Source: an uncultured Gemmatimonadota bacterium (GTDB lineage: Bacteria > Gemmatimonadota > Gemmatimonadetes > Gemmatimonadales > Gemmatimonadaceae). Taken from it: a stretch of DNA of 64,000 nt. Each line of letters opens with the position of its first letter. Position 1 is the stretch's first letter. Position numbers and translations under genes: made by a program. The stretch covers positions 47,498-111,497 of the forward strand of contig CADEDA010000004.1 of assembly GCA_902825965.1 (NCBI GenBank). Direction: 5' to 3'. Shown in pieces: positions 3,399 to 46,807 of this stretch. The notes under the pieces are model-generated. The model had not been told where the DNA came from. It did not search any database and saw only the letters and a program-made list of their open reading frames with translations.

Positions 3399-4285
3399 GC
3401 CCGCAACGCTTCCGCTCCCTCGACGACCCCGAGGCCCTGCGCTCGCTCGTGCGCAACCTGCGCGAGGCGATCTACATCACCAACGCCCGCGGCGACATCC
3501 TCGATGCCAACCCCGCGTTCTTCACGCTGCTCGGTGTGCGCTCGCTCGCCGACCTGCAGCAGTACGGCGCCAACGAGCTGGTGGTGGACCCCTCGCGACG
3601 CCTGCAGCAGATGGAGATCCTGGAGCGCGACGGCTACGTGCGGGACTTCGAGTTGCAACTGGTGCGGCCCGACGGCGGCCTGCTCACGGTGCTCGACTCG
3701 CTCTACGCGGTGCGCGACACGGTGAACGACGAGATGCTCTATCACGGCGTGTTGGTGGACATCTCGCAGCGCAAGCGCATGGAGGAGGAGCTGCGCCAGC
3801 AGTCGATGCGCGACCCGCTCACCGGCTGCTTCAACCGTCGGTACCTCGCCGAGATCGACGAGGAGATGAGCCGCAGCGACGGCACCTGGGGCTGCCTGTT
3901 CATCGACATCGACCACTTCAAGCACTACAACGACACGCACGGCCACCAGATGGGCGACAACACGCTCATCCGCATGAGCCGATTCCTCATGCGGCAGGTG
4001 CGCGCCGAGGAGCCGGTGGTGCGTGTGGGCGGCGACGAGTTCGTGATCGTGATGCGCGGCGCGAGCGAGGCGCAGACCATGATGGTCGCGCAGCGCATGC
4101 AGGCCGCGGCGCTGCGTACGGCGCCGGTGCCGTTCTCGCTGGGCTGGGCCGCCCGCACCTCGTCCGAGAACCTCATGAACACCATGCACCGGGCCGACCA
4201 GAACCTGCTGGCCGTGCGGGTGATCGAGCGCACTCCCACCCGGATCACCGGGGCCATCCCCCGCGAGGACGACCAGCGGACCTGA
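3395..4285 (+). CDS. PAS-GGDEF diguanylate cyclase
   Basis: This 296-residue cytoplasmic sensor-cyclase has a PAS domain at about 15-125, ending in the usual D-I-S-Q-R-K linker, then a GGDEF domain from D-P-L-T-G (140) onward. The active-site loop G-G-D-E-F is at 212-216. The metal and guanine-binding motif D-I-D-H-F-K...N-D...G-H-Q-M-G-D at 171-188 is intact, so it should make c-di-GMP from two GTP. Asp188, replaced by Ser in the Hypr cGAMP synthases, is conserved, which argues against cGAMP production. The autoinhibitory site five residues before GGDEF reads R-A-E-E (203-206) rather than RxxD, so product inhibition may be weakened. The start overlaps the HD-GYP stop by four bases, so opposing enzymes are made from one coupled message. 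Confidence 0.95.
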   Translation: MSPQRFRSLDDPEALRSLVRNLREAIYITNARGDILDANPAFFTLLGVRSLADLQQYGANELVVDPSRRLQQMEILERDGYVRDFELQLVRPDGGLLTVLDSLYAVRDTVNDEMLYHGVLVDISQRKRMEEELRQQSMRDPLTGCFNRRYLAEIDEEMSRSDGTWGCLFIDIDHFKHYNDTHGHQMGDNTLIRMSRFLMRQVRAEEPVVRVGGDEFVIVMRGASEAQTMMVAQRMQAAALRTAPVPFSLGWAARTSSENLMNTMHRADQNLLAVRVIERTPTRITGAIPREDDQRT

Positions 4286-35984: not shown

Positions 35985-37658
<1,674 letters not shown>

Positions 37659-37791: not shown

Positions 37792-39210
37792 ATGAACGCG
37801 GAGACGTGGATGCGGCTGCAGCGGCGATCGCTGGTGCGCGCAGTCGGGCGGGTGGCGATCGTCCCCGCGATGCTCGGGTCGGCGGGCGCTCCGCTCATGG
37901 CGCAGGGCACGATCCGCGGGCAGGTGCTCGATTCACTCTTCGCGCGCGCGCCGCTCGCCGGGGCGACCGTGGTGCTCCAAGGCGCCCCGCACACCGCGGT
38001 CACGGACCGGTCGGGGCGCTTCGTGCTTCGCGACGTGCCGGCGGGGCGGTACCAGGTGGCGTTCTTCCACCCGCTGCTCGATTCCCTCGAGATCTCCGCC
38101 GCAGCGGTGCCCGTGGAAGTGCGCGACGGCGGGGCGGCAGCGGTGACCCTCGGCATGCCCTCGGTGGCGCGGCTGGCGGCGGCACTCTGCCCCTCGGGCC
38201 TCGAACAGGCCACCGGTCTCGTGTTCGGCGTGGTCCGCGACGCGGAGCGTGAGGCGCCGCTCGACAGCGTGGTCATCAACGCCCACTGGTTCGTGGCGAC
38301 GCTCGAGCGCGGGGTCCTGCGCGAGTCCCGCGTGCAGGTCGACGCCATGTCGGGTGCCGATGGGCGCTATGTCCTCTGCGGCGTGCCCACGGACGTGGTG
38401 ACGACCATGCTGGCGCAGCGCGGAGAGCAGCGCACCGGCGACCTCCAGCTCTCGCTCGCCAGCGGCGACCTCGTCCGTCGCGACCTGTTGCTGAGCCTCA
38501 GCGACACCGCCGCGCGCCGTGCCCCGTTGATCGTCACCGACACCGGACTGCGTGCGGTCCCCGCGGGCAGTGCCCGGTTGCGGCTCCGCGTGGTGGACGG
38601 TCGCGGGCGTCCGGTGGGTGGAGCCTCCGTGGGGGTGCGGGGCGCGCCCGCGGGCGCCACCACCGATGCCGACGGGCGGGCGACACTCGTGCGCCTGCCG
38701 AGCGGCTCGCAGGCGCTGCTGGTGCGGAAGGTCGGCCAGGAACCCGTGCAGCAGGTGGTGGCGCTGCGTCCCGGTCGCGACGCGGAGGCGACCGTGCTGC
38801 TCGACCGTCGCATCGCCGAACTGCCCACGGTGGCGGTGACCGGACGCAAGGTGAACCGGACCCAGCTGGAGCGCGACATCGAGCGCCGTCTCCTCTCGGG
38901 ATTCGGCTACCAGTACAACGCGGCGCAGATCCAGCGCGCGGCGAGCGGACTCACGTTCTGGGCGATGGTGCCGGGCATCCGCGTGATCAACGACGGGTTC
39001 GATGCGCTCCCGCTCATGCGCAGCAGCTCGGGCGACCTCTGCGTCCCGAACGTCCTGTTCGATGGCGCACTCGTGCCGGATGTCGGGGCCTGGGAGCTGC
39101 GCATGTACCTGATCGGCGCGCGGCGCATGGAGATCTACCCGTACGCGGCCACGCGCCCGGTGGAGTTCCCCCGCGGCATCGACTGCGGCACCATCGCGAT
39201 CTGGTCGTAG
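37792..39210 (+). CDS. Exported protein with carboxypeptidase-regulatory-like and plug-like domains
   Basis: This 472-residue protein has a signal peptide (to L-M-A-Q near 38) and an Ig-like carboxypeptidase-regulatory-like domain (I-R-G-Q-V-L-D...L-A-G-A-T-V-V-L, about 40-115). Another such region follows (about 245-335, R-L-R-V-V-D-G-R-G-R-P-V-G-G-A-S-V). The end resembles a truncated TonB plug (about 345-472, with C-V-P-N-V-L-F-D-G and Y-L-I-G-A-R-R-M-E-I-Y-P), but there is no beta-barrel. Such barrel-less proteins are frequent in Gemmatimonadota; their role is unknown. The last residues I-D-C-G-T-I-A-I-W are typical of the group. Confidence 0.75.
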   Translation: MNAETWMRLQRRSLVRAVGRVAIVPAMLGSAGAPLMAQGTIRGQVLDSLFARAPLAGATVVLQGAPHTAVTDRSGRFVLRDVPAGRYQVAFFHPLLDSLEISAAAVPVEVRDGGAAAVTLGMPSVARLAAALCPSGLEQATGLVFGVVRDAEREAPLDSVVINAHWFVATLERGVLRESRVQVDAMSGADGRYVLCGVPTDVVTTMLAQRGEQRTGDLQLSLASGDLVRRDLLLSLSDTAARRAPLIVTDTGLRAVPAGSARLRLRVVDGRGRPVGGASVGVRGAPAGATTDADGRATLVRLPSGSQALLVRKVGQEPVQQVVALRPGRDAEATVLLDRRIAELPTVAVTGRKVNRTQLERDIERRLLSGFGYQYNAAQIQRAASGLTFWAMVPGIRVINDGFDALPLMRSSSGDLCVPNVLFDGALVPDVGAWELRMYLIGARRMEIYPYAATRPVEFPRGIDCGTIAIWS

Positions 39211-43955: not shown

Positions 43956-44007
43956 GACGGTGCCCTTGAGAACGACACTGTGGTCGCCGAGACTGACGCT
44001 CACAGAC

Positions 44008-44135
44008 GCTGCCCAGAGCAAAGCCGTCGAAAGACGGCGACGCAGAGCCACGGAGCTACCGCGGACCCCGTCCGCCACGCCAGCCGAGCCGCCAGCCCTT
44101 CAGACCGCATCCGTGGTCCGTGGTTGGCGGCTCTC
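44008..44135 (+). ncRNA. GEMM-class cyclic-dinucleotide riboswitch, cGAMP-type variant
   Basis: The segment reproduces the two-hairpin GEMM-I aptamer. AGAGCAAA (44015-44022) leads into a stem GCCGTC-GAAA-GACGGC (44023-44038) with the GNRA tetraloop, then GACGCAGAGCC (44039-44049), matching the family's GACGCAAAGCC. The second hairpin is CGG (44051-44053) with CCG (44084-44086), carrying the inner stem GCGGA/TCCGC. The base equal to G20 of c-di-GMP aptamers is A (44017), the change known in GEMM-Ib switches that sense 3',3'-cGAMP. GAGCCGCCAGCC (44086-44097) can pair with 44122-44133 over 12 bases (one G-U), overlapping the aptamer base, so it is a likely switching hairpin. The regulated gene starts at 44216. 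Confidence 0.75.
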
Positions 44136-44215
44136 GCATTTCGGCGGGCGCCACCGACGCCGTAAGGGCGCTGCACCACGACCACGGAGGCATCCCTCTC
44201 TGAGGAGCTTCCGAG

Positions 44216-46807
44216 ATGTCGACCCCGTTCCGCCGCACCACGCGCACTGCGCGTGCCCTGCGCCACACCACGCTGGTCCTGTCCGTGCTCGCGCCGCTCG
44301 CGTGCGAGCCCATGGATCCGTCCACGTCGCCCGACGATCCGCCGGAAGAGGTCGTGGTGAGCGCGGTGCGTGTGCTCCCGGAATCCTCGGCGGTGCTCGT
44401 GGGCCGCACCCTCACGTTGACCGCCGAGGCACGTGACGCGAGCGGGAACCGGATCCCGGGCGAGACGGTGACGTTCAGCAGCTCGGACACCGCGGTCGCG
44501 GAGATCGACGCGTCCGGCGTGCTCACGGCCAAGCGCAGCGGACGGGTCGACGTGGAAGCGCGCGTGCGCGGGGTGCGCGGCACGGGACGCGTGGTCGCGC
44601 AGGTGGAGCCGGTGGCGAGCGTACTCGTGTCGCCCTCGCGCACCAGCGTGCAGGTCGCGTCCGAGGTGACGCTCAGCGCGTCGACGCGGAGTGCGAGCGA
44701 TGCGGTGCTCAGTGGCCGCGCGGTCGTGTGGAGTTCGACCGCGACGTCGATCGCCACGGTCGATGCATCCGGCCGCGTGCGTGGCATCGCGCCGGGCAGC
44801 GCCGTCATCCGGGCGACGAGCGAAGGCATCGTCGGCACGGCGCAGGTGGACGTCTCGGCGGCACCGCCGCCGCCGGTGCCGGGGACCGTCGCCGACCTGT
44901 CGGTCGCGTCGGTCAGCGACAGCGGCCTCACCCTGCGCTTCACCGAGGTGGGCAACGGCAGCGGCGCGGCGGCGACGTACGACATCCGGTACGCGCGATC
45001 GCCCATCACGTTCTCGACCGCGAGCACGCCGGCGCGCGGCACCTGCTCGGCGTCGTTCGCCGGTACGGGCGTGGGCAACGTGCGCACCTGCACCATCCTC
45101 GGGTTGAGCAGTGGCACCGCATACTCGGCACAGGTGGTCGCGTATCGCGGCACCCTGGGCGCCGGCGCCGTGCTGGGCGCGACGTCGAACATCGCGAGTG
45201 CGACCACCACCGTGCCGGCCGTGGCGACGGTCACGCTGGCCCCGACGACCGCGAGCGTCCTCACCGGTGCCACGCAGGCATTCGGCGCGACGCTGCGCGA
45301 TGCGTCGGGCGCCGTGCTGACCGGCCGCAGCGTGACCTGGAGTTCGAGCAACACGGCCGTGGCCACGGTCAACGGCAGCGGCGTCGCGACGGGTGTGACG
45401 GCGGGCACGGCGACCATCACCGCGACGAGCGAGGGGCGCAGCGGCAGCGCGAGTCTCACGGTGAGCGTGCCGGCCCCGGCCCCCGTGGCCACCGTGACCC
45501 TGGCGCCGACGACGGCGAGCATCACCACCGGGAGCACGCGCAGCTTCGTGGCCACCCTGCGGGACTCGGCCGGCACCGTGCTCACGGGCCGGAGCGTCAC
45601 CTGGACCTCGAGCAACCCGGCGATCGCGACCGTCTCGAGCGGCGGCGTGGCGACGGGCGTGGCGGCCGGCACGGCGACCATCACCGCGACCAGTGAAGGG
45701 CGCAGCGGCAGCGCGACGTTGACCGTGACCGTCCCGGCGCCGGCCCCGGTGGCGACCGTCACGCTCACGCCAACGACGGCGAGCGTGTTCACCACCGCGA
45801 GCCAGACCTTCGTTGCGACGCTGCGGGATGCGGGCGGCAACACGCTCACCGGACGCAGCATCAGCTGGACCTCGAGCAACACCGCCGTGGCCAGCGTCAG
45901 CGCGAGCGGCGTCGCCCTCGGCCTCACCGTCGGCACGTCGACCATCACGGCGACCAGCGAAGGCCGCACGGCCACCGCGACGCTGACCGTGGTCACGCCG
46001 CCGCCGCCCCCGCCGCCGGGCACGTTCACGTTCTCGTCGGACTGGAGTGCCGCGACCGGCACCTCGGCGACGGCGCTGCGTGACGGCGGGAAGTGGGACA
46101 ACCTCTACTGCCAGCAGGCGGGTACCACGCTGACGGTGGTCCCCGGATCGACCGTCGGGTGGACCAAGACCGCGAACGTGCTGCGGCTCCAGGAACTCGG
46201 GCCGAGCGCCTGCGGCATGCTCGAGAAGCTGGATGCGGTGCCGCAGAGCACCACGCATTGGGGACGCTTCTACTTCCGCAACGACGAGGTCGGCGCGCGC
46301 CACAATCACGTCGCGACCCTGTTCCCCGTGGGCACCATCCAGCTCGCGCTGTGGAGCCGCTATGGGACGGCCGCCGGCGTGAACGTGTTCCTGCGCACGT
46401 ACTGGACACCGACCGGCGCCGCGCAGCCGTACCCCACCAACGTGTGGTCGATGGGCACCGCCGGTCGCCAGCAGCTCGACTTCCTGCCCAACGGCGTGTG
46501 GTACCGCTATGAGTGGATGATGGAGTACGTCACGCCGACGACGTATCGCATCTGGCCGCGCATCTACGACATGTCGGACAACCTGCTCTACGATGCGACG
46601 CGGTTCTACCAGAGCGACTACCCGCAGTCCGGCGCCCACTCGCTCGCGTCGTACTACGCGGCAGGCAACACCTTCGGGCTCACCGACGCCTCCATGGCGC
46701 GGCGCTTCGGGATCGGCAACGAGGGTCCGGGTGGATCGACGCTCTCGGGCATGTACTGGTACCACGCCGACGTGGCACTCAGCACGACGGGCTGGATCGG
46801 GCGCTAG
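44216..46807 (+). CDS. Ig-like (BIG2) repeat lipoprotein with lectin-like C-terminus
   Basis: This 863-residue surface or secreted protein has a lipobox-like L-A-P-L-A-C near residue 30 and five BIG2 Ig-like domains (about 47-130, 131-215, 335-420, 425-508 and 510-592). Each has a W-x-S-S-x-x-x-x-A-x-V core and an A-T-I-T-A-T-S-E-G-type end. A fibronectin-III-like domain at about 220-335 splits them after the second. A Pro run at about 595-602 leads to a 260-residue C-terminal domain with Trp/Tyr-rich beta strands resembling polysaccharide lyase or ConA-like folds. BIG2 proteins commonly mediate adhesion or carbohydrate binding. GGAG before ATG 44216 fits translation. Control by a cyclic-dinucleotide riboswitch fits a surface-attachment role. 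Confidence 0.85.
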   Translation: MSTPFRRTTRTARALRHTTLVLSVLAPLACEPMDPSTSPDDPPEEVVVSAVRVLPESSAVLVGRTLTLTAEARDASGNRIPGETVTFSSSDTAVAEIDASGVLTAKRSGRVDVEARVRGVRGTGRVVAQVEPVASVLVSPSRTSVQVASEVTLSASTRSASDAVLSGRAVVWSSTATSIATVDASGRVRGIAPGSAVIRATSEGIVGTAQVDVSAAPPPPVPGTVADLSVASVSDSGLTLRFTEVGNGSGAAATYDIRYARSPITFSTASTPARGTCSASFAGTGVGNVRTCTILGLSSGTAYSAQVVAYRGTLGAGAVLGATSNIASATTTVPAVATVTLAPTTASVLTGATQAFGATLRDASGAVLTGRSVTWSSSNTAVATVNGSGVATGVTAGTATITATSEGRSGSASLTVSVPAPAPVATVTLAPTTASITTGSTRSFVATLRDSAGTVLTGRSVTWTSSNPAIATVSSGGVATGVAAGTATITATSEGRSGSATLTVTVPAPAPVATVTLTPTTASVFTTASQTFVATLRDAGGNTLTGRSISWTSSNTAVASVSASGVALGLTVGTSTITATSEGRTATATLTVVTPPPPPPPGTFTFSSDWSAATGTSATALRDGGKWDNLYCQQAGTTLTVVPGSTVGWTKTANVLRLQELGPSACGMLEKLDAVPQSTTHWGRFYFRNDEVGARHNHVATLFPVGTIQLALWSRYGTAAGVNVFLRTYWTPTGAAQPYPTNVWSMGTAGRQQLDFLPNGVWYRYEWMMEYVTPTTYRIWPRIYDMSDNLLYDATRFYQSDYPQSGAHSLASYYAAGNTFGLTDASMARRFGIGNEGPGGSTLSGMYWYHADVALSTTGWIGR
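45224..46000 (+). repeat. Three tandem ~265-bp BIG2 coding repeats
   Basis: Three successive copies (about 45224-45480, 45490-45735 and 45745-46000) share long near-identical stretches, such as the segments encoding T-V-T-L-A-P-T-T-A-S and A-T-I-T-A-T-S-E-G-R. The similarity at DNA level points to recent duplication or homogenisation and offers a route to change domain number by recombination. Confidence 0.75.

Follow-up and report, generated by a model that had tools for sequence, protein, structure and literature searches.

cGAMP riboswitches have been described for Geobacter and other Deltaproteobacteria, in which they tune extracellular electron transfer. The locus described here, in a 64,000-nt stretch of DNA (hereafter the window) from a member of the Gemmatimonadota, raises the question of whether its riboswitch senses 3',3'-cGAMP or c-di-GMP. 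With confidence a little better than even, we favor the reading that the window carries a functional GEMM-I riboswitch whose pocket (A20, G48, A47 and C92) is of the cGAMP, GEMM-Ib-like type, and which would act as an ON switch and bind 3',3'-cGAMP in vitro at least as well as c-di-GMP.

The aptamer, its gene and its genus

When the window was searched against Rfam using cmscan, one RNA reached the gathering threshold: the c-di-GMP-I (GEMM-I) aptamer RF01051 at 44007-44096 on the forward strand. The full model (1-87) was matched with a score of 46 bits against a curated cut-off of 35 (E 8.1e-6 over 64 kb and 4227 families). The alignment placed A44017 at model position 11, the position of Vc2-G20, where A marks the GEMM-Ib subclass. 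A preliminary description of this DNA had proposed a GEMM-I aptamer with this substitution, ahead of an adhesin-like, Ig-like surface protein gene in a Gemmatimonadota-type genome. The covariance model bore out the aptamer and the substitution, the genome belongs to the Gemmatimonadaceae, and the downstream gene encodes Big_2 and fn3 domains. The proposed extent was 44008-44135, and the aptamer proper occupies 44007-44096.

The 5' strand of P1 (GCUG, 44008-44011) was read from the sequence as the complement of 44093-44096 (CAGC); P1 is unpaired in the Rfam model. The equivalents of A47 (44044) and C92 (44092) are kept in the cmscan alignment, and the Vc2-48 position is occupied by G (44045). 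Judged by these bases, the pocket is of the cGAMP type, and the aptamer may prefer cGAMP. Family model and secondary structure are those of Vc2-type c-di-GMP-I riboswitches (RF01051), from which the window differs in the residue that recognises the alpha base, which is A and not G. The window shares the GEMM-I fold, A20, A47, C92 and, as proposed below, terminator-type ON control with the Geobacter GEMM-Ib switches (Gs1761, PDB 4YAZ; Gm0970). In contrast to the G48 and G21-C46 of the window, Gs1761 carries A48, and its 21-46 pair is flipped; G48 is therefore not common to the crystallised cGAMP switch. These positions follow the numbering of PMC6274999, in which a simulation of the Gs1761 aptamer showed residue A42, matching Vc2-48, in contact with the ligand part of the time.

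Downstream of the leader, a putative Shine-Dalgarno-like GAGGAG (44202-44207) lies 8 nt 5' of the ATG of an open reading frame on the same strand (44216-46807). The 863-aa product contains five Big_2 stretches (Pfam, 4e-50) and an fn3 domain, and is probably a surface lipoprotein, its signal having been judged by eye. Unlike the Geobacter switches, the window type controls Ig-like lipoprotein genes, and its host genus is without a recognised cGAMP synthase. Gene type was considered as a discriminator between A20 and G20 leaders and was rejected, because lipoprotein and Big_2-type genes stand behind both.

The genome of the window (4.07 Mb in 73 contigs, 95% complete) harbors two GEMM-I aptamers; the second also has A20 and precedes a gene for a STAS-domain-like protein (by eye). 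Across the genus, 16 aptamers at threshold were found in 9 of 17 genomes. All 15 that were read by script have A20, and the sixteenth (L014) also has A in its leader; A20 is kept within the genus in two leader types, and G48 is kept in the aptamers ahead of Big_2 genes. In other genera of the family, the aptamers read alongside those of the genus have G20, and some lower-scoring ones have A20. In the second leader type, which precedes STAS-like genes, position 20 is A in two genera (g1 and g25) and in a single g6 genome, and G in three other g6 genomes; it therefore switches at apparently orthologous leaders. A GGDEF gene (37868-38314) lies directly upstream of the L014 aptamer (37551-37643, minus strand) on the same strand, and the window itself contains a canonical Asp-type GGDEF domain (3806-4216, plus strand).

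A hairpin that shares the 3' end of the aptamer

The preliminary description had pointed to a 12-base hairpin overlapping the aptamer base as a possible switch. This is a real inverted repeat, in which 44086-44097 pairs with 44122-44133 through 11 Watson-Crick pairs and one G-U. It is the dominant element of the fold predicted for the leader (z -4.2), and its 5' arm overlaps the P1 3' strand and C92, so that the hairpin and a closed P1 exclude each other. The 3' arm is kept in relatives. In the window it is followed by a weak U-tract (TCTCGCATTT), and the equivalent hairpin of the relatives is followed by T-rich DNA.

The same arrangement was found across many A20 aptamers. An 8-12 nt complement of the aptamer 3' end occurred within 75 nt downstream, with a mean of 6.0 T per 10 nt behind the hairpin, in 63 A20 instances and in no G20 instance, among 146 A20 and 35 G20 aptamers whose 3' end was recognised (totals that include duplicate counts of some loci and a few fortuitous pattern matches). 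In shuffled DNA, a hairpin with a T-rich tail appeared in 3 of 176 cases (one shuffle each). In many G20 leaders, the start codon comes soon after the aptamer, approximately 90-105 nt from its core, and control in these cases is probably translational.

Geobacter cGAMP riboswitches are reported to exert terminator-type transcriptional ON control. By analogy, we infer that the window leader is also a transcriptional ON switch. Ligand binding would close P1 and thereby withhold 44086-44097 from the terminator-like hairpin; with the hairpin not formed, RNA polymerase would continue into the Big_2 lipoprotein gene. A scan for consensus promoters found none.

The source of the ligand and the identity of the messenger

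A source of cGAMP in the host is expected for function, although it lies outside the RNA definition of GEMM-Ib. Hypr GGDEF enzymes, which make cGAMP in Geobacter, have Ser in place of Asp at position 348 together with GGDE[F/Y], and often a residue other than Arg at 304 (PMC6456294). Neither a Ser-type Hypr GGDEF nor a DncV-like cyclase was recognised in the genome of the window: Asp occupies the Hypr position in each of its nine GGDEF domains, and no Ser-GGDEF pattern matched in this 95% complete assembly. Five good relatives likewise yielded no Ser-GGDEF, with Asp in every GGDEF readable at the Hypr position (four weak REC-type matches with an unreadable motif, and L177, are left out of this reading). 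The search for Hypr GGDEFs suggested in the preliminary description was thus negative. A SMODS search gave none in the genome and one in the genus. Together, the Asp-type GGDEFs and the SMODS result indicate that the genus has no recognised cGAMP synthase. A REC-GGDDF protein kept in the genus has Asp348, an unusual SYYDGD motif and Thr at the expected Arg304 (by eye), and might, speculatively, be a candidate unusual cyclase. Among Geobacter proteins, GSU1937 combines GGDDF with Hypr activity, although its residue 348 is Ser (PMC8835794).

The Asp residues at the Hypr position, and the absence of other cyclic-dinucleotide synthases of the kinds searched in the genome, speak for an alternative that we take seriously while holding it somewhat improbable: the switch works on c-di-GMP, as an A20 aptamer of relaxed specificity served by ordinary diguanylate cyclases. 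A natural A20 aptamer of Desulfobacca acetoxidans, which differs from that of the window in standing in tandem with an AdoCbl riboswitch, bound cGAMP better and kept most of its c-di-GMP binding (PMC9481103). A20 is therefore insufficient as a mark of cGAMP sensing. Further, in relatives, genes like that of the window are controlled by G20 leaders. However, a single mutation would restore G20, yet A20 is present in all aptamers of the genus that were read and G48 in those ahead of Big_2 genes. The c-di-GMP alternative is also at odds with the link of A20/G48 aptamers to Hypr enzymes within family f2, described below.

Of 394 genomes of the class searched with exact core patterns, 68 contained A20 cores and 99 contained G20 cores. 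G48 was present in 103 of 113 A20 cores and, among the matches listed, in 0 of 150 G20 cores (both counted by eye); the sequences are mutually related, and a p value for this coupling is descriptive only. Ser-GGDEF motifs matched in 55 of the 394 genomes, 44 of which were kept after judging by sequence. An initial pattern that required a terminal Leu missed genus g33, as revealed by a protein search, and was widened and rerun.

A class-wide Fisher test of A20 against Ser-GGDEF (p 1e-13) was set aside because it is confounded by relatedness, and we relied instead on a table within one sister family, f2, with G20 aptamers as the control. In this table, which is not corrected for phylogeny, Ser-GGDEF was present in 22 of 23 genomes with A20/G48 and in 4 of 51 others (22/1/4/47, p 9e-14); the corresponding counts by genus were 7/1/3/21 (p 3e-4). 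For G20 aptamers there was no association, with Ser-GGDEF in 9 of 22 genomes versus 17 of 52 (9/13/17/35, p 0.34). By sequence, the f2 enzymes are of the Hypr type. They keep GGDEF with Ser348 and have mostly Tyr, otherwise His, Gln or Asn, at residue 304, the same combination of Ser348, GGDEF and non-Arg304 as in the published Hypr enzymes (PMC6456294), whereas nearly all of the Asp-type domains among the 60 of 64 listed have Arg there. One f2 domain (L102) has the Geobacter Hypr GGDEF GmGacA (6d9m) as its best solved relative. Genes with these GacA features occur in f2 and some other families and were not found in the genus of the window. In the Ser-GGDEFs read from families f5 and f8, Ser is again paired with GGDEF, and residue 304 is Asp or Gly. 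No Ser-GGDEF was detected in the same genome for the family of the window (f1) or for most A20 genomes of f5, f7 and f8. Three f7 GGDEFs pair Ser348 with GGEEF, and are counted in the class-wide Fisher table and not in the f2 table; this pairing is reported to be inactive and absent from nature (PMC6456294).

No other result argues as strongly as the f2 table that what A20/G48 aptamers sense is made by Hypr enzymes, and part of the Gemmatimonadota probably uses cGAMP, a prediction that is well supported for f2. For the window, the earlier claim of cGAMP sensing is partly supported: A20, its coupling to G48 and the Hypr link in f2 speak for it, and the insufficiency of A20 and the failure to find a Hypr GGDEF in this genome or in five good relatives speak against it. 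The lack of a known cGAMP source in the genus and the difference of G48 from Gs1761 could also suit a sensor of another adenine-containing dinucleotide or an unknown messenger, which we consider highly unlikely, given that both A47 and C92 are conserved and that the Hypr GGDEF product is what the f2 association suggests. Although 46 bits is among the lower aptamer scores of the genus and several non-standard pairs are marked in the alignment, a decayed or non-functional GEMM-I relic is very improbable given that the core, tetraloop, hairpin and gene type are all kept in relatives with diverged sequences.

Range of the A20/G48 type and its meaning

In a scan of named genomes, which also gave apparent chance matches in unrelated DNA, A20/G48 cores among the matches listed came from Gemmatimonadota, Desulfuromonadales, Geobacteraceae, Nitrospirota, Acidobacteriota, Zixibacteria, Eisenbacteria and others; this pocket type is thus shared with Geobacteraceae records. 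When 17 core loci were checked against Rfam, 16 contained a GEMM-I aptamer at threshold, including that of Candidatus Manganitrophus, and one (L251) contained none. The earlier suggestion of a range beyond exoelectrogenic Deltaproteobacteria gains from these aptamers in Gemmatimonadota, Nitrospirota, Acidobacteriota and others and from the Hypr-type link in f2.

Several leaders contain more than one aptamer. In Candidatus Manganitrophus, a manganese-oxidising member of the Nitrospirota, and a relative, GEMM-I aptamers occur in pairs within a few hundred bases, with at least one A20/G48 aptamer per pair. At two other loci, three A20/G48 aptamers, approximately 157 nt apart, stand in a row ahead of one lipoprotein-like gene. 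At eight loci (some genomes are represented twice), a G20 aptamer adjoining the start codon of a lipoprotein gene lies 155-185 nt downstream of an A20/G48 aptamer that carries a terminator-like hairpin. The A20 aptamer comes first in every such pair seen, and both aptamers were confirmed by Rfam. By their layout, these tandem leaders look like a two-input gate for cGAMP plus c-di-GMP; no such A20-G20 pair figures among the tandem riboswitch gates tabulated in PMC9481103.

A literature search, limited in reach, for cGAMP together with Gemmatimonadota returned nothing on the subject. A broader picture, which we find doubtful as a whole, would be a Gemmatimonadota cGAMP system composed of GacA-like Hypr cyclases, dedicated A20/G48 switches for Ig-like surface lipoprotein genes, and tandem A20-G20 leaders that integrate cGAMP and c-di-GMP; the genus of the window would retain the cGAMP switches and supply them from an unrecognised synthase.

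The pocket type of the window is now found in several further phyla and ahead of Ig-like surface proteins. With its cGAMP-type switches and no known cGAMP enzyme, the genus of the window is a clean case in which to ask if A20 by itself reveals the messenger. In f2, a Hypr-type cyclase is tracked genome by genome, and the G20 aptamers provide an internal control; wider cGAMP signalling can therefore be put to a direct test.
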